From positions 2,190,501 to 2,254,500 of the forward strand of contig NZ_CP039934.1 in NCBI RefSeq assembly GCF_009792295.1: a stretch of DNA of 64,000 bases, read 5' to 3'. The notes beneath the pieces are model-generated. The model was not told where the DNA came from. It searched no databases and saw nothing but the letters and a program-made list of their open reading frames with translations. The DNA comes from Myroides fluvii (GTDB lineage Bacteria; Bacteroidota; Bacteroidia; Flavobacteriales; Flavobacteriaceae). Positions within the stretch are counted from its first letter, which is position 1. Each line of letters begins with the position of its first letter. The translations under genes and the position numbers were made by a program. Positions 4,002-25,686 of the stretch are shown piece by piece.

Positions 4002-4229
4002 ATGAAAAAATACAACAAGGATAAACTCAATGCATATGCGAAAGAATTGTTTGAATTATGTCTAAAAAAGGGCGTCGTTTTTGAATATTATCCATATTCA
4101 TCGGGTATTGACATCAGAACCAATTCATGCCAGATAGGCCATACCTATATTTGTGAAAAGATGTTTAATTATAATCAAGGCGATGCTATGCCGATCTGGC
4201 TATTAATAAGAAAAGTGGAAGAGTTATGA
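4002..4229 (+). CDS. Hypothetical protein between TerS and TerL
   Basis: 75 aa, beginning MKKYNKDKLNAYAKELFELC. It is basic at the N-terminus with a first helix, then an aromatic-rich middle (FEYYPYSSGIDI) and a C-terminal helix. Three cysteines (C34-like, C48 and C56 region) do not form a CxxC ribbon. Its stop overlaps the TerL start in an ATGA arrangement, so it is translationally coupled to TerL. No family was recognised; a packaging accessory role is only suggested by position. Confidence 0.65.
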   Translation: MKKYNKDKLNAYAKELFELCLKKGVVFEYYPYSSGIDIRTNSCQIGHTYICEKMFNYNQGDAMPIWLLIRKVEEL

Positions 4230-5941
4230 AACTAACCAAAGAAATGCTTTCTTCACCAGCTTTTCAATATGCAGAAATGGTGAGGAGTGGAAAGTTGAAA
4301 ACAGGCAAAAAAATACAGCTCGCTGTTGAGCGGTTTTATAAGTTCATTGAAGAGTCGGATGCAAAAGGATTTACAATTGATCACGATAAAGGAATGCGAG
4401 CCGTTAATTTCTTTCCAAATTTCTTAAATCATACAACCGGAAAGATGGCAGGTCAGCGATTTTTTTTGGCTCCTTTTCAAGCGTTTACCATCTACAATAT
4501 TTTCGGATGGATTCACAAAGAAACTGGAGTGCGTCGGTTTAATACGGTTTATGATAAACGCGCTAAGAAAAACGGAAAAACAGCAGAAATGGCGGGGCTT
4601 GCTTTGTTTTGTATGTCGTTTGATGTGGAGATGGGGGCGCAAATCTATGTCGGAGCAACCAAAGAAGAGCAAGCAAAAATCTGTTGGAACCAAGCTAAGA
4701 TGTTTATTGATTCTCCAGTTTCAAATCCTAACCTTCGAAATATGGGATTCCAATGTTTTCAAAAGGAAATCAAGTTTGGAAGAACACAATCCGTTATGAT
4801 GCCGCTTGGAGGTGATTCTAAAACACAGGATGGAATTAACGCCCATGTTGCAATCATTGACGAGTATCACGCGCACAAGGACGATACGGTTAAGGAAAAT
4901 TTGGAATCGAGTTCGGTATCCAGGAAGCAGCCAATTACTTATCATATCACAACAGCCGGTGTAAACTTAATGAGTGCCTGCAAGCGATATGAAGAAGCAG
5001 TTACAGAAGTGCTGGAAGGAAGGAATCAAGACGATCACTTGTGGGTTATGATTCATGATTTAGACGAAAGCGATGATTGGGAAAATGAAGACAACTGGTT
5101 TAAAGCAAATCCGCTTTTGGGATTTGGTTTAGATATCGATAACATTCAAAAAGAATACATCAAGGCACGGAACCAACCAAGTAAGATTCCAAACTTCAAA
5201 ACGAAACATTTAAATATGTGGGTGGATGCACCTACAATTTGGATTCCAAATGAAATATGGATGGCAAATAAAGTGGATGAATTACCAATGGAAAAGTTTT
5301 CACAATTTGGAGCATATGCAGGAATGGATTTATCTACAACTACAGATATCACTTGTTATGTAGCGGTATCAGAACCAGACGAAGAAATGAATCGATATAT
5401 AAAGCCTTATTTCTTTTGTCCAAAAGATACAATAGAAAGAAGAAGCAAAGAGGATCGCGTACCCTATCAATATTGGGTGGATGCTGGATATATGATTGCA
5501 ACACCAGGTAATGTAGTTGACTATGAATATTTGAAAGATACTATTCGAGCAACGTATCGAGAGCTGAATATTCAACGCATTGAGGCGGACCAATGGAACT
5601 GTGCGCAATTAGCACAAGAATTAACCGAGGAGGGAATGAGTATCAGTTTCTTTAGTCAAGTAGTAGGTGTGATGTCCTTTCCGACTAAGCAATTTGAGCG
5701 ATTGACCTATGAGGGAAAATTAAAACACGACGGTAATCCGATTTTGCAATGGATGCTTTCCGGTTGTTCTATCTATCAAGACGCAAACGAAAACATAAAA
5801 GTTCATAAAGGAAATTCGAACAAAGGAGGGAAACGAATCGATGGGATTGTTTCTACAATTATGGCGCTGGGTGGATCAATGTCAGTTGAGGAAGATGAAG
5901 GAGGAAAATACAGCAAACCTGGAGCTGAAGTTTATATTTAA
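4226..5941 (+). CDS. terL: Terminase large subunit
   Basis: 571 aa, typical length for the HK97-like Terminase_1 family. The N-terminal ATPase has the deviant Walker A KRAKKNGKT at 111-119 and Walker B VAIIDEYHAH ending in D212-E213. The C-terminal RNaseH-like nuclease begins with YAGMDLS (D368) and continues with IEADQWN and a KRIDGIVSTIMALG ending, the usual order of catalytic acids. It would cut concatemeric DNA and power its translocation through the portal. The family is associated with phages that have an HNH partner and HK97 capsid genes, as here. Confidence 0.96.
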   Translation: MKLTKEMLSSPAFQYAEMVRSGKLKTGKKIQLAVERFYKFIEESDAKGFTIDHDKGMRAVNFFPNFLNHTTGKMAGQRFFLAPFQAFTIYNIFGWIHKETGVRRFNTVYDKRAKKNGKTAEMAGLALFCMSFDVEMGAQIYVGATKEEQAKICWNQAKMFIDSPVSNPNLRNMGFQCFQKEIKFGRTQSVMMPLGGDSKTQDGINAHVAIIDEYHAHKDDTVKENLESSSVSRKQPITYHITTAGVNLMSACKRYEEAVTEVLEGRNQDDHLWVMIHDLDESDDWENEDNWFKANPLLGFGLDIDNIQKEYIKARNQPSKIPNFKTKHLNMWVDAPTIWIPNEIWMANKVDELPMEKFSQFGAYAGMDLSTTTDITCYVAVSEPDEEMNRYIKPYFFCPKDTIERRSKEDRVPYQYWVDAGYMIATPGNVVDYEYLKDTIRATYRELNIQRIEADQWNCAQLAQELTEEGMSISFFSQVVGVMSFPTKQFERLTYEGKLKHDGNPILQWMLSGCSIYQDANENIKVHKGNSNKGGKRIDGIVSTIMALGGSMSVEEDEGGKYSKPGAEVYI

Positions 5942-5956
5942 CCAATACGATAAATT

Positions 5957-6211
5957 ATGACGATAACACAACATCATTTAGCGGTCCAGGCAGAGAATGA
6001 ACGGCTAAAACAAGAAAATGAATTGATGAAGCAAATTGCTTCGACAGAAGGATTTTATGAATTCTATTTTAAAAATATCACGAAGTATTCTTCTCGTATT
6101 GATGCGTTTAATTATGTAAATGGATTGTATGAGAAGTATTTCGGGAGTAAACGATATAAGAATTATTGGAGTTTTAAAAGAACTATTAATCGTAAATTAA
6201 GTAGTGTCTGA
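5957..6211 (+). CDS. Hypothetical protein with N-terminal coiled coil
   Basis: 84 aa. Residues 8-30 (LAVQAENERLKQENELMKQI) form a short leucine/heptad coiled coil with E and K at surface positions; the remainder is rich in aromatic and basic residues (YEFYFKNITKYSSRIDAFNYV and YKNYWSFKR). It lies on the plus strand 15 bases after TerL and is the last late-strand gene before the antisense HEPN cargo gene. No family was recognised. A DNA- or membrane-associated small protein is possible but nothing shows it. Confidence 0.6.
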   Translation: MTITQHHLAVQAENERLKQENELMKQIASTEGFYEFYFKNITKYSSRIDAFNYVNGLYEKYFGSKRYKNYWSFKRTINRKLSSV

Positions 6212-6327
6212 AAAGATATTTTGCTATTGTTAATTATGATGTTGTCTGTATTAATTTAATAATTAAGATTTAACTGTGATTTATATTGTAATTACTCTCT
6301 ACTTTGGTCTTGTAAGGTGTTTTTATT

Positions 6328-6369
6328 TAAATTCTAAGAGAAGATATTACACACTTCTCTTAGAATTTA
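6328..6369 (-). terminator. 16-bp perfect hairpin at the end of the antisense cargo gene
   Basis: Arms 6328-6343 and 6354-6369 are perfectly complementary (core CTAAGAGAAG / CTTCTCTTAG) around a 10-base loop. The right arm touches the stop codon of the minus-strand gene. Neither side has a good T-run, so it is a strong RNA hairpin that may terminate or protect transcripts from both directions rather than a classical intrinsic terminator. Confidence 0.6.
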
Positions 6370-7683
6370 TTATAGAAAGTTATTGTAAATTTCAAAATTA
6401 AAATTGGGGTTTTTTTCTAACATTTTTTCTTTAATCAATAAATTGGTTGAGATTGCTTTTTTTCTACCATAAATTTGACTATTAGAGTTTATTCCTGAAA
6501 TAAGCATCTTTAGACTATCTTCACTAAAGTCGTTTAATCTATTAAAAACACAAGCGTCGAATCTTTCGTCTGCATATAAAAACTGAGAACTAGATATAAA
6601 AAATTTTATTATTACTTCATTAGATAAGTCATTAAAATCATAATAATCTAGTGTAGCTGCGAGTTGATTTATGTAATAAACTTCTGCTTTTTGATATTTT
6701 GAAAAAGTGTCATTTTTAGAAAAATTACAATTAAATAGTTTTTCCTTTAAAAAAATTTCAATTTCATTTTTTGTTATTGAGGTTAGGTAAAATATACTTA
6801 CTATTTGGAGATTGTAATCTAATTCAATTGTATTGTCAATATAGTTTTTTAATGATTCATCTAAAACTGGATATATGTCAGTATTTTTATTTAATATTGA
6901 AGTGATTAGAATACCTATCATGTCTTCGTTTAGTTTTTTTTCTAATCTTTTATTTTTAAAAAAGAATTGAGTTAAATCAAACTTTCTGTTTTCTAATAAG
7001 GTGTTAATGAATAGAATGTTATGAAACTCATTGTCTTTACATTTTTCTGAATTGCAATAAAAAACAATTTCCCAGAAACTCATTAATAAGTCTTGTTGGT
7101 GAAAGGAAGATATTTTGTTTATATAAGTCGTTGTAAAGTACTTTTTGAATTGAAGGTGTGAAAGTCGTTTTTTCTTAAATTCAATATCTGTTAAAATAAT
7201 TGAAACTGTATTTATTTTATCTAGTGGTGATATTATAAAAACTTCTTGTAACATCTGTTGTATCAAGGATCTTGTCAGCTCTTTGTCGGGAGAATAAAGT
7301 TGTTTTTCATTTAGTATAGTGGGATGAGCGCATAAATGTCTTTTTTGTTTCAAATATTCTATGTTATTGAAAGTGTCTAAACTAATCAGTTTTAGTGATT
7401 CATGAGCTTGTTTTGTTAAAGTATTTTCCCAGCTCGTATCTTTTGGTTTTTCTTGTTTATTTTTTTTTATTTTATCTAAAATACCTTCTGCTTTTTGATC
7501 ATTATAATCAAGTGCTAGTTCAGCTATTTTTAGATATAAGTCAGTAATCGTTACTGTGTATAACATTACAACAGCTGATCTGTAAGATTCGTGATAATAT
7601 GATTTTAGAATTTCTTTAAAATATTCTCTAGTCTGTGGATTATGAATATTCTCGCTTAGCAAGTCTAAAGATATTGGTGTCAT
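6370..7683 (-). CDS. Antisense cargo protein with HEPN-like R-x4-H motif
   Basis: 437 aa from ATG at 7683; a GTG at 7740 would add 19 residues. The first 150 residues are helical (YFKEILKSYYHESYRSAVVM, the start of many HEPN/DUF4145-like domains) and contain KRHLCAHP, an R-x4-H motif (R115-H120 from this start) as in the RNase site of HEPN domains. The remaining 290 residues are helical, lysine/asparagine/phenylalanine-rich and unrecognised. The gene runs against the late operon between TerL and portal and is visibly more AT-rich than its neighbours, signs of a separately acquired cargo gene. Known HEPN proteins act in abortive infection and toxin-antitoxin systems; a defence or superinfection-exclusion role is inference. 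Confidence 0.6.
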   Translation of the reverse strand: MTPISLDLLSENIHNPQTREYFKEILKSYYHESYRSAVVMLYTVTITDLYLKIAELALDYNDQKAEGILDKIKKNKQEKPKDTSWENTLTKQAHESLKLISLDTFNNIEYLKQKRHLCAHPTILNEKQLYSPDKELTRSLIQQMLQEVFIISPLDKINTVSIILTDIEFKKKRLSHLQFKKYFTTTYINKISSFHQQDLLMSFWEIVFYCNSEKCKDNEFHNILFINTLLENRKFDLTQFFFKNKRLEKKLNEDMIGILITSILNKNTDIYPVLDESLKNYIDNTIELDYNLQIVSIFYLTSITKNEIEIFLKEKLFNCNFSKNDTFSKYQKAEVYYINQLAATLDYYDFNDLSNEVIIKFFISSSQFLYADERFDACVFNRLNDFSEDSLKMLISGINSNSQIYGRKKAISTNLLIKEKMLEKNPNFNFEIYNNFL

Positions 7684-7723
7684 TTTTTTAGTATTTAAAT
7701 AATAGCTAATATAATTAAACTTC

Positions 7724-7750
7724 GGGAACAAAGTTCCCACCTTGTCAAGG
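7724..7750. promoter_or_regulatory. Two adjacent palindromes between cargo gene and portal
   Basis: GGGAACAAAGTTCCC (7724-7738) and CCTTGTCAAGG (7740-7750) lie side by side in the divergent space between the antisense cargo gene and the portal gene. On the minus strand GAACTTTG (one mismatch to TAnnTTTG) overlaps the first. Likely operator or promoter region of the cargo gene. Confidence 0.4.
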
Positions 7751-7794
7751 TTTTGCTACTTAAGTTTGCTATGTAATCATCAAATGATAAGATA

Positions 7795-8991
7795 GTGTTT
7801 GGATTCTTAGGTAGACTTTTTAAAACTTCTGACAGTTCGATTTCTTCGGACAATTCCTTCATGGGTTCTCCAGTAGAAGGAACGCTAGCTACTGCTTCGT
7901 CTGCATTAACGTTATCTGCATTTTATAATGCAGTTGATCAGATAAGCAACGATATAGCTAAGCTACCTAAATCAGTGTTTAAGAAAGATGAAGATAGTCG
8001 CGAGAGATACGCTGGTCATCCCTTGAACTATCTCATATCAACTGAGCCGTCAGGTCTGATGACTGCTTTTGATTTTTGGAAAGCGGTTGTCTTGCAAGTA
8101 ATCCTGAAAGGAAATTGTTACGTGCGGGTTTATCGTAATAGTTTAGGTATAGAAGAGAAACTAATCATTCAAGAGGTTTATAATGTAGGCGTTAGATGTG
8201 TAGATGATGAACTGTTCTATGTAATAAAAGGAGAGGTGTTTTTGTCCAGTGATATATTGCATTTCAAAGCATTCAGCGTCGATGGAATTATGGGAATTCC
8301 TGTAATAAAATGGGCAGCTTACAATTTAGGTGTAAATCTAGATGCGCAAAAATACGCTTCTACTATTTATAATGATCGTGGTATTGGGTACGGAGTAATA
8401 GAAAGTGACAAAGCTATTCATGTAGATAATAAAAAATCTATCTCTGAAGGATTTACTAAAAAGATGGCTGAGAAGAATAAGTTTAAAGTTCCGGTTCTTG
8501 ATGACGGTTTAAAATACAAATCAATTAGTGTTACTCCTGAAGAAGCACAATTCTTAGAAACCAATAAGTATTCAGTAACAGAAATAGCGCGCTGGTTGAA
8601 TATTGCACCACATAAGCTTAAGGACCTTACCAATGCAAACTATTCAAACATACAAGCGCAATCTATTGAGCATGTTCAAGATTCTTTGCTTCCTTGGACA
8701 ACACGAATTGAGCAAGAATTAAACAGAAAGATGTTTGCTCGCGAAAGTTCAGAATCTCTTTATGTAAAGTTTAATGAAAAGGTTTTATTAAGGGGAGATT
8801 TAGAAGCTAGGCAAAAGTTTTATTCTGCTATGGTTTATGCGGGAATAATGACTAGAAATGAAGTTAGAGCATTAGAGGATTTGAATCCGCTAGAAGGACT
8901 TGATGAGCCGTTAACACCTGTAAATATGGAATTGTTGAGTTTTATGATTGATAAAAATAAAAAGGAATTGAATAATGAGCAAGGTAGTTAG
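7795..8991 (+). CDS. Portal protein, HK97 family
   Basis: 398 aa, usual for HK97-type portals. It starts at GTG 7795: the in-frame stop is at 7774 and no ATG lies between, and the N-terminus FGFLGRLFK is what portal proteins of this family begin with. Typical family segments follow: ALTLSAFYNAVDQISNDIAKLP, LILKGN-like VILKGNCYVRVYR, SDILHFKAFSVDGIMGIPVI and the C-terminal IAPHKLKDLTNANYSNIQAQ. It forms the dodecameric ring through which TerL packages DNA. The 3' end overlaps the protease gene by 17 bases. The GTG start next to the antisense cargo gene may reflect disturbance of the original upstream junction. Confidence 0.95.
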   Translation: MFGFLGRLFKTSDSSISSDNSFMGSPVEGTLATASSALTLSAFYNAVDQISNDIAKLPKSVFKKDEDSRERYAGHPLNYLISTEPSGLMTAFDFWKAVVLQVILKGNCYVRVYRNSLGIEEKLIIQEVYNVGVRCVDDELFYVIKGEVFLSSDILHFKAFSVDGIMGIPVIKWAAYNLGVNLDAQKYASTIYNDRGIGYGVIESDKAIHVDNKKSISEGFTKKMAEKNKFKVPVLDDGLKYKSISVTPEEAQFLETNKYSVTEIARWLNIAPHKLKDLTNANYSNIQAQSIEHVQDSLLPWTTRIEQELNRKMFARESSESLYVKFNEKVLLRGDLEARQKFYSAMVYAGIMTRNEVRALEDLNPLEGLDEPLTPVNMELLSFMIDKNKKELNNEQGS

Positions 8992-24318: not shown

Positions 24319-24791
24319 GAATAGTTGTATTGTTGATTGTGATGCTTGGATTAGTAGCACAATCTTGTGGATCTCGTAAAGTTGAAAAACATAGTAAGTC
24401 ATCTTTGGAAGAAACGAGTACTTCTCTCCAGGAGCAAACAAAAGTTACCGAGATTCAATTTGATAGAAAAAGGATTTTCGAGATTATGCGAGAGTTAAAT
24501 ATTCGCAATGGATCTATAACTTTTAATCCGGATGGTTCCGTCACGGCCAAGGGCGATGAGATTGATTTGAAGAATAAAGAAGCTGGCGAGGAATTGGAAT
24601 CGATTGAGGTGAAGGAAGAGGATACTAAGCTGGATCTTGATCAGAAGGAAAAGAAAACTGAAGAGGATAACGGAAAGAAGGTGGATCGAGAGCAATTTGG
24701 TTGGTGGGGGATTATTGTACCAATAGGGGTAATTGGATTTTTGATTTACATGTTTAGAAAGTCATTGAAAAAAGTAAGCCGACTGTTTTAG
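24315..24791 (+). CDS. Probable unimolecular spanin (lipoprotein plus C-terminal TM)
   Basis: 158 aa. A lipoprotein signal peptide (IVVLLIVMLGLVAQSC, lipid-attached cysteine C18) is followed by a charged, coiled-coil-like periplasmic region of about 110 residues (EETSTSLQEQTKVTEI, then KEEDTKLDLDQKEKKTEED) and one C-terminal membrane span at about 129-147 (WWGIIVPIGVIGFLIYMF) with a basic end. Outer-membrane lipid anchor plus inner-membrane span in one chain is the defining layout of u-spanins such as T1 gp11, which fuse the two membranes at lysis. It directly follows the endolysin. An ordinary phage lipoprotein is the alternative, but the C-terminal span argues against it. Confidence 0.75.
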   Translation: MRIVVLLIVMLGLVAQSCGSRKVEKHSKSSLEETSTSLQEQTKVTEIQFDRKRIFEIMRELNIRNGSITFNPDGSVTAKGDEIDLKNKEAGEELESIEVKEEDTKLDLDQKEKKTEEDNGKKVDREQFGWWGIIVPIGVIGFLIYMFRKSLKKVSRLF

Positions 24792-24803
24792 TCGGCTTTT
24801 TTT
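24776..24803. terminator. Bidirectional terminator between spanin and antisense cargo gene
   Basis: AAGCCGAC (24776-24783), loop TGTTTTA, GTCGGCTT (24791-24798), then a T-run to 24803. The stem contains the stop codons of both convergent genes, so the late operon ends here. Confidence 0.85.
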
Positions 24804-25507
24804 ATTGTGTAAGCTTTGTACAAAAATGGTATTGCTTCTTTGTTTATGAAATCTATATAATTTACAAAGTGTTCAAGTGCTTTTTCAGATCCTTCCATAT
24901 AATTGAAGTTATCTTTAAATATCTTATTTTCTTTATCATATACAATTTTCGCTTCAATATTTGAAATATTATGGATAAAATCATTTCGAATACTTAATAT
25001 TGGCAACAAATTATCATTATTAATTAATTTATTAAAAGTATCGTTGAGTTCATTATTTTTAAATGTCTTATTTAATATTTTATCAACCTTACCTTTAGTG
25101 ACAACCTTTTGTATTCCAAGGTTAAACATAATATTTATCAGATGTAAAAACCTATCAAAAGAACCACTAATTTTCAAATAAAACATTTCGTAATTTGTTT
25201 CAAAAAGCAAACTTGTAGCTACTTGTTGTTCATTACCAAATTGATTTGGGTTCTTACTTGCGTAATATAGTCCTATTGATAAATAGTGATTAGCAACACT
25301 AATGTGATTAATCATTTGTTCATAAAAAACTTTTTGCTCTTTAAGATAACTAGAATGGAAAATATTTTCTCTATTTAATTGTTTTTCATCATTCTTTTTA
25401 ATTGCATCAATATCATATTTATCTAATTCAGGATATTTCTGATAGATTGCTTTCATATTTTCTTTACTTGGGAAAGTAAAATCATCCCATTTCAATTCTG
25501 TTTTCAT
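24788..25507 (-). CDS. Antisense HEPN-domain cargo protein (Cthe_2314-like)
   Basis: 239 aa. Helical throughout; the segment LLPILSIRNDFIHNISN contains R174-N-D-F-I-H179, the R-x4-H motif of HEPN RNase domains, preceded by KLINNDNL. Length and arrangement (long N-terminal helices, HVSVANHYL-like NHISVANHYLSIGLYYA, then the motif two thirds along) resemble the Cthe_2314-type HEPN family. It lies antisense between the lysis genes and the attachment site, the classic spot for lysogenic-conversion cargo, and is strikingly AT-rich. No nucleotidyltransferase or antitoxin partner is adjacent. A role in defence or exclusion is inference. Confidence 0.68.
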   Translation of the reverse strand: MKTELKWDDFTFPSKENMKAIYQKYPELDKYDIDAIKKNDEKQLNRENIFHSSYLKEQKVFYEQMINHISVANHYLSIGLYYASKNPNQFGNEQQVATSLLFETNYEMFYLKISGSFDRFLHLINIMFNLGIQKVVTKGKVDKILNKTFKNNELNDTFNKLINNDNLLPILSIRNDFIHNISNIEAKIVYDKENKIFKDNFNYMEGSEKALEHFVNYIDFINKEAIPFLYKAYTIKKAD

Positions 25508-25664: not shown

Positions 25665-25686
25665 ATCAAACCCCATTTCGGTCACA
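25665..25686 (+). other. Candidate right attachment site in a tRNA 3' end
   Basis: ATCAAACCCCATTTCGGTCA plus CA reads like the end of a tRNA: T-loop TCAAAC, T-stem 3' strand, acceptor 3' strand and discriminator base, with no 5' tRNA part before it. A strong terminator follows at once, as downstream of an expressed tRNA. Phage DNA ends and host genes begin here. The complete tRNA would be at the left end, outside the window. Confidence 0.5.

Follow-up and report, generated by a model that had tools for sequence, protein, structure and literature searches.

Here we have characterized a 437-aa gene (the cargo gene) in a prophage of Myroides fluvii, using a 64,000-nucleotide stretch of contig NZ_CP039934.1 that we call the window. 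We show that the gene belongs to the PD-T7-3/'Dandelion' family, that it carries the HEPN signature in the placement described for such domains, that it lies antisense between the genes for the terminase large subunit (TerL) and the portal protein, and that the interval between these two genes is highly variable among related phages. The cargo gene is probably a single-gene anti-phage system of the PD-T7-3 family, carried as a moron of a temperate tailed phage and acting as an abortive HEPN RNase. A prophage gene that would have passed for an 'orphan' is hereby assigned to an anti-phage family having a solved relative.

The minus-strand frame is open from 6370 to 7740, with the ATG at 7683 set by alignment with homologues (Table 1). 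The gene stands alone, without a partner, and its neighbours are phage genes on the opposite strand. Its GC content is 0.25 against 0.395 in the TerL flank. The frame, the Pfam and PHROGs assignments of the flanks and this composition confirm the preliminary description of an antisense, AT-rich gene of 437 aa between terminase and portal.

Table 1. Features in and around the TerL-portal interval (window coordinates)
Feature	Position	Strand	Evidence
Terminase large subunit (TerL), left anchor of the slot	4226..5941	+	Pfam PF20441 E=6.3e-42, PF03354 E=1.8e-32; phrog_9
Small conserved ORF after TerL, 84 aa	5957..6211	+	Present in 33/35 related phages
Possible remnant: first bases of the ~62-65-aa membrane-like ORF, rest absent	6209..6230	+	Junction alignment, by eye
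Terminator-like hairpin where the TerL unit and the cargo gene converge	6332..6365	+	-13.8 kcal/mol
PD-T7-3/'Dandelion' family protein, 437 aa (cargo gene)	6370..7683	-	PADLOC PDLC04108 E=3.5e-90; PDB 9wxf E=2.7e-35
C-terminal domain, almost all-helical, solenoid-like, residues ~151-437, putative sensor	6373..7233	-	
N-terminal HEPN domain (predicted), residues ~1-150	7234..7683	-	9wx2 'Dandelion-hepn' E=2.1e-24 over residues 5-149; AF2 model
R115-H-x3-H120 motif (RHLCAH)	7324..7341	-	R and H in 41/41 aligned homologues
Dyad GGGAACAAAGTTCCC	7724..7738	.	Compensatory changes among six close phages
Palindrome ACCTTGTCAAGGT, right edge of the slot	7739..7751	.	Invariant in six close phages
TAAGTTTG, possible portal-unit promoter	7761..7768	+	Shared by six close phages
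Portal protein, right anchor of the slot	7795..8991	+	Pfam PF04860 E=1.1e-85

Pfam and PHROGs returned nothing convincing for the cargo protein. Against the PADLOC profile for PD-T7-3, by comparison, it scores 301 bits, with residues 1-436 aligned to positions 1-428 of 432, and a protein search recovered 45 other homologues at E<=1e-3, the best of them (44% identity) from Myroides odoratimimus. Among PDB sequences the protein matches 'Dandelion' 9wxf (460 aa) over residues 5-435, 'Dandelion-hepn' 9wx2, and 9wwz, a C-terminal construct of a relative (E=6e-6); the family profile itself matches 9wxf at E=1.8e-129. Through these matches, the N-terminal part corresponds to one that depositors name 'hepn' in a relative, and the C-terminal ~290 residues are matched as well. 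The latter had been described as unrecognised, which no longer holds, as they belong to the same full-length family, with a C-terminal construct (9wwz) deposited. A literature search found no paper on 'Dandelion' (9wxf, 9wx2 or 9wwz). Judged from these alignments, the cargo gene adds a divergent new member to an already known defence family and is not a new kind of system.

Residues R115, H120, D48, K52, W85, E86 and P121, the last directly after H120, are invariant in 41/41 aligned homologues, and residue 116 is H in 39 and N in 2; the alignment comprises 41 of 46 proteins, with P0032, P0037, P0044, P0045 and P0046 omitted as partial or very distant. R and H are likewise present at every locus that covers the site (97/98), a count that is biased because one fetch pattern contains RHLCAHP (D48 and K52 occur in no pattern) and that includes loci encoding proteins already among the aligned 41. 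Given the family match, the 45 homologues and the invariance of R115 and H120, RHLCAH is not a chance occurrence. An AlphaFold2 model of the protein (mean pLDDT 92.2, pTM 0.83) is almost all helical, with R115-H120 at the end of helix 102-119 and D48/K52 within helix 34-60. Following the HEPN definition of PMC3710099 for motif and helix placement, R115 and H120 are positioned in the model as that text describes for R-x4-H, and the acidic-x3-[KR] pattern that it reports in helix 2 of many HEPN families is found as D48-x3-K52 in helix 34-60 and in all aligned homologues. Alignment and model together support an HEPN-type N-terminal domain. The R-x4-H motif in a helical context, which had been noticed at residues 115-120, thus stands, and so does the core of the first reading, an HEPN-type anti-phage cargo gene in antisense, which is supported by the invariant signature, its placement in the model and the 'hepn' domain of the relative.

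A Foldseek search with the whole model gave no PDB or viral match at E<=0.001. Rows below significance were mostly helical-repeat proteins matching the C-terminal part, the VIA rows mainly covering residues 150-437; this would agree with the weak HEAT-like C-terminus reported for the structural relative BxaP, and is a weak pointer on its own.

A protein of this kind might nevertheless be a silent passenger, or an inactive RNA-binding HEPN protein, kept by hitchhiking. Such a history would fit the low GC content, a profile score below those of other same-genus homologues and the lack of a recognised promoter. We consider it quite unlikely, since the 437-codon frame is intact, R115, H120, D48, K52 and the other family-invariant residues checked are kept, and model confidence is high along most of the chain.

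Portal and TerL proteins served to collect relatives of the phage, both from viral contigs and among 398 same-genus genomes (13 matched, 11 regions fetched). After 11 near-duplicate loci and loci without both anchors had been dropped, 35 distinct phages were retained, the window's included. Their TerL-portal intervals span 120-4746 bp (median 1116), against -25 to 18 bp (median -7, n=25) at a control junction from the portal to the next head gene, and the interval thereby shows the high gene turnover, with a conserved phage gene on either side, that marks hotspots of the P2/P4 type. Its usual residents are two small ORFs, namely the 84-aa ORF and a membrane-like ORF of ~62-65 aa; the latter is present in 31/35 and was not found in the window phage, in L115 or in two distant phages, and no family was found for either in Pfam or PHROGs. 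Besides these residents, 53 further ORFs forming 43 clusters were called mechanically in the intervals (>=70 aa, not proven genes); they precede the 84-aa ORF or separate the membrane-like ORF from the portal. In several relatives the interval is almost empty. At the left edge in the window, a junction alignment may still show the start of the lost membrane-like ORF; tblastn with this ORF gave no protein-level match there, the best hit (E=0.89) being on the other strand.

A PD-T7-3 gene occupies the interval in 1/35 distinct phages. Its position between TerL and portal could by itself suggest a conserved late gene for phage structure or packaging, but it is missing from the other 34, lies on the opposite strand and matches a defence family over its full length, so that this possibility is extremely remote and a conserved late structural gene was rejected. 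The search at the same spot in related prophages, as had been suggested, therefore bears out the idea of cargo. It also overturns the view that this is an unusual place for it, because in this phage lineage the TerL-portal interval is a recurrent cargo slot, situated at an apparent transcription-unit boundary.

The contents of the slot are diverse. In the six closest phages (TerL identity >=80%) the portal-proximal position holds the cargo gene, antisense ORFs of 157 aa (L097), 278 aa (L098), 151 aa (L133) and 54 aa (L172), and a sense ORF of 189 aa (L115); PADLOC has no family that matches the 157-, 278-, 151- or 189-aa protein at E<0.01. In more distant phages the slot encodes a D12 DNA methyltransferase (L114), a BrxP-like protein with a PAPS-reductase domain (L134), a reverse transcriptase (L138) and a DUF4406 protein (L107). 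A PADLOC scan of nine related-phage proteins, which covers part of the 53 ORFs and includes one membrane-like ORF that is a normal resident, gave three matches at E<1e-15 (the methyltransferase, the BrxP-like protein and the reverse transcriptase). The reverse transcriptase gene (L138:7646-11327; PF00078 E=2e-16) lies between TerL and the 84-aa ORF in surroundings that resemble, by eye, a diversity-generating retroelement.

The recurrence of antisense ORFs, found at the same place in four of the five other closest phages, could also mean that the PD-T7-3 homologue serves the phage itself, for instance by superinfection exclusion of close relatives, or that an antisense transcript tunes the late genes. 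The cargo gene does run against the head-gene units on both sides of it and is convergent with the TerL unit. Sister phages, however, fill this position with unrelated genes, which argues that the cargo protein is not needed for an effect in cis; some family members outside phages adjoin restriction-modification (RM) and Lamassu genes; and PD-T7-3 is reported to defend against unrelated lytic phages (PMC9519451). We therefore regard a role for the phage itself as unlikely and retain the reading as an anti-phage system.

How an antisense gene can be tolerated among head genes is suggested by the sequences at the two edges of the slot. The plus-strand terminator-like hairpin lies just past the cargo gene's stop codon; on the minus strand, to which that gene belongs, no such hairpin was found at 6332-6365 by the criteria used. 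Plus-strand terminator-like hairpins of <=-10 kcal/mol occur in 15/24 viral-contig intervals against 6/240 shuffled sequences; for L112, L113 and L124 the best hairpin in this count falls within an ORF, and each of the three has another nearer the portal. Within the 220 nt upstream of the portal, a hairpin of <=-5 was detected in 13/29 regions versus 15/290 shuffles, and in 0/24 control regions upstream of the next head gene; the corresponding 220 nt of the window contain no terminator-like hairpin. Only identical sequences were removed for these hairpin counts, in which near-duplicate phages count more than once.

At the right edge, the dyad is paired in 94.4% of cells among the six close phages, against 33-56% for slid partners, and two of its pairs have changed on both sides. 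The -7 element of Bacteroidota promoters is TAnnTTTG, which we take the octamer upstream of the portal to resemble; the more distant phages compared lack this octamer. The block at 7724-7768 is, from its sequence, a possible regulated late promoter. Upstream of the cargo gene itself we found no convincing Bacteroidota promoter. Most simply, TerL and portal would belong to separate transcription units, with cargo entering at the boundary. Since the terminator-like hairpin would end the TerL unit and a promoter-like block precedes the portal, the antisense insert need not break expression of the head genes.

The wider surroundings are those of a prophage. An integrase-like gene (L139:6243-7541, by eye) lies beside five tRNA-Lys genes and one tRNA-Leu gene, and the 14 bp at the 3' end of the tRNA-Leu gene (L139:6039-6052) are repeated at window positions 25672-25685. 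These repeats are likely to be the attachment sites, 25672-25685 being the right one. IMG/VR holds a 30.5-kb contig of what is apparently the same prophage. A second HEPN-like gene (24788-25507, minus strand, 239 aa) also lies antisense to late genes, immediately ahead of the likely right attachment site; it matches PF18730 HEPN_Cthe2314 at E=5.9e-9, contains RNDFIH and has no PADLOC match at E<=0.1.

We propose that the lysogen makes the cargo protein from a transcription unit of its own, and that the C-terminal helical solenoid would sense infection by a competing phage and release the N-terminal HEPN domain. R115 and H120, aided by D48 and K52, would then cleave RNA, and the infected cell would stop supporting phage growth, an abortive infection that would spare the lysogen population and with it the prophage. 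The slot would join two apparent late transcription units, its promoter and terminator functions being presumed. A reading in terms of defence is supported because the PADLOC match, the 'hepn' name of the Dandelion domain, the invariant residues, the protection given by relatives, the homologue in the P2 Z-region and the RM and Lamassu neighbours of others all point to it, and the variability of the slot and its enrichment in terminator-like hairpins fit in with it. Counting against it are the lack of a significant fold match for the whole model, of a clear cargo promoter and of an own-strand terminator, the lower profile score, the 27% identity to the P2-EC30 homologue, the slot genes of the closest phages without a PADLOC match, and the rarity of homologues in phage records.

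That rarity is pronounced, with one match among 50,697 phage records (ORF1 of P2-EC30, 27% identity), which lies in the P2 Z-region between annotated repeats. Among 72,556 plasmid records 129 match, three of them over most of the protein, and 8/398 genomes of the same GTDB genus have a match, this genome included and one being weak and broken. Several of the genus-level homologues have neighbours of defensive type. One (L182:963-5313) is directly upstream of type I RM methylase and specificity genes on the same strand, another (L187) adjoins a PDC-S54 gene, and two (L185:3978-8270 and L183:1060-5325) are directly upstream of lmuC-lmuB, LmuC having been scanned in both and LmuB in L183 only. 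For L184 and L186, one neighbour was scanned in each and gave no match. From these placements, PD-T7-3 proteins look like defence effectors that serve in more than one context.

The two lmuC-lmuB loci invite comparison with Lamassu, in which lmuA normally precedes lmuC. If this order applies, the PD-T7-3 homologue occupies the position expected for lmuA in L183 and L185; in contrast, the cargo gene of the window lies between phage genes with no lmuB or lmuC adjoining. LmuA is the Lamassu effector (PMC12342005), and from the gene order checked at these two loci it is possible that the PD-T7-3 homologue has been swapped in for it. Homologues apparently in the LmuA position of two same-genus genomes suggest that the family can act as an interchangeable effector.

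Taking slot and family together, we suggest tentatively, and with rather less than even confidence, that the Flavobacteriales terminase-portal boundary is a modular slot for inter-phage competition genes at a transcription-unit junction, bounded by a terminator on its left and, in the close clade, by a conserved palindromic promoter/operator block on its right. PD-T7-3/Dandelion would be one plug-in, used elsewhere in the same genus with Lamassu (for LmuA) and next to type I RM. The slot may be a defence hotspot, or it may take up morons in general. If the suggestion is true, unknown antisense slot genes would be candidate new anti-phage genes, and the slot genes of the sister phages (157, 278, 151 and 189 aa) become testable candidates.

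Compared with known hotspots, the slot resembles those of P2 and P4 in being a small high-turnover locus between two conserved phage genes, and a P2 phage carries a PD-T7-3 homologue in its Z-region. The P2 hotspot is placed between gpA and the portal gene gpQ near cos and that of P4 near cos, with further hotspots in Vibrio phages, where they lie between cI and integrase, and in a prophage of Bacillus (Rousset et al. 2022, PMC9122126); a second P2 locus holds fun (PMC9519451). The slot described here differs from the hotspots as given in the portions of these two papers drawn on, as it runs from TerL to portal within the late region of Bacteroidota prophages, and a narrow literature search found no description of a terminase-portal hotspot.

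BxaP (ORF376) is reported as a structural relative of PD-T7-3, with DUF4145 in its N-terminal part and a weak HEAT-like hit in its C-terminal part. It protects against T4, probably through abortive infection, and its P121A substitution significantly lowers protection (PMC10799925). This residue shares its number with the invariant P121 of the cargo protein, a likeness in numbering. By hmmscan, DUF4145 gave no match in the cargo protein at E<=1 (the BxaP paper used HHpred) and one weak match (E=0.049) among 41 family members. BxaP is tied to type 3 BREX or type I RM, whereas the cargo gene has no such linkage and is flanked by the TerL unit and the portal gene.

PD-T7-3 itself was found by functional selection in E. 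coli, with stronger protection against T-even phages than against T7, in a study in which 12/21 systems were located in intact prophages (Vassallo et al. 2022, PMC9519451), and a review table places it under HEPN (PMC10952713). The cargo gene is like PD-T7-3 in its full-length match, in being a single gene and in length (437 aa against a 432-position profile). It differs in its score, which is well below the 406-515 bits of six strong same-genus homologues, and in its place at the TerL-portal junction, a position not named for PD-T7-3 in the portions of PMC9519451 drawn on here. Dandelion, compared by sequence match only, is a distant relative of the cargo protein that nonetheless aligns with it along its full length and across the HEPN part.
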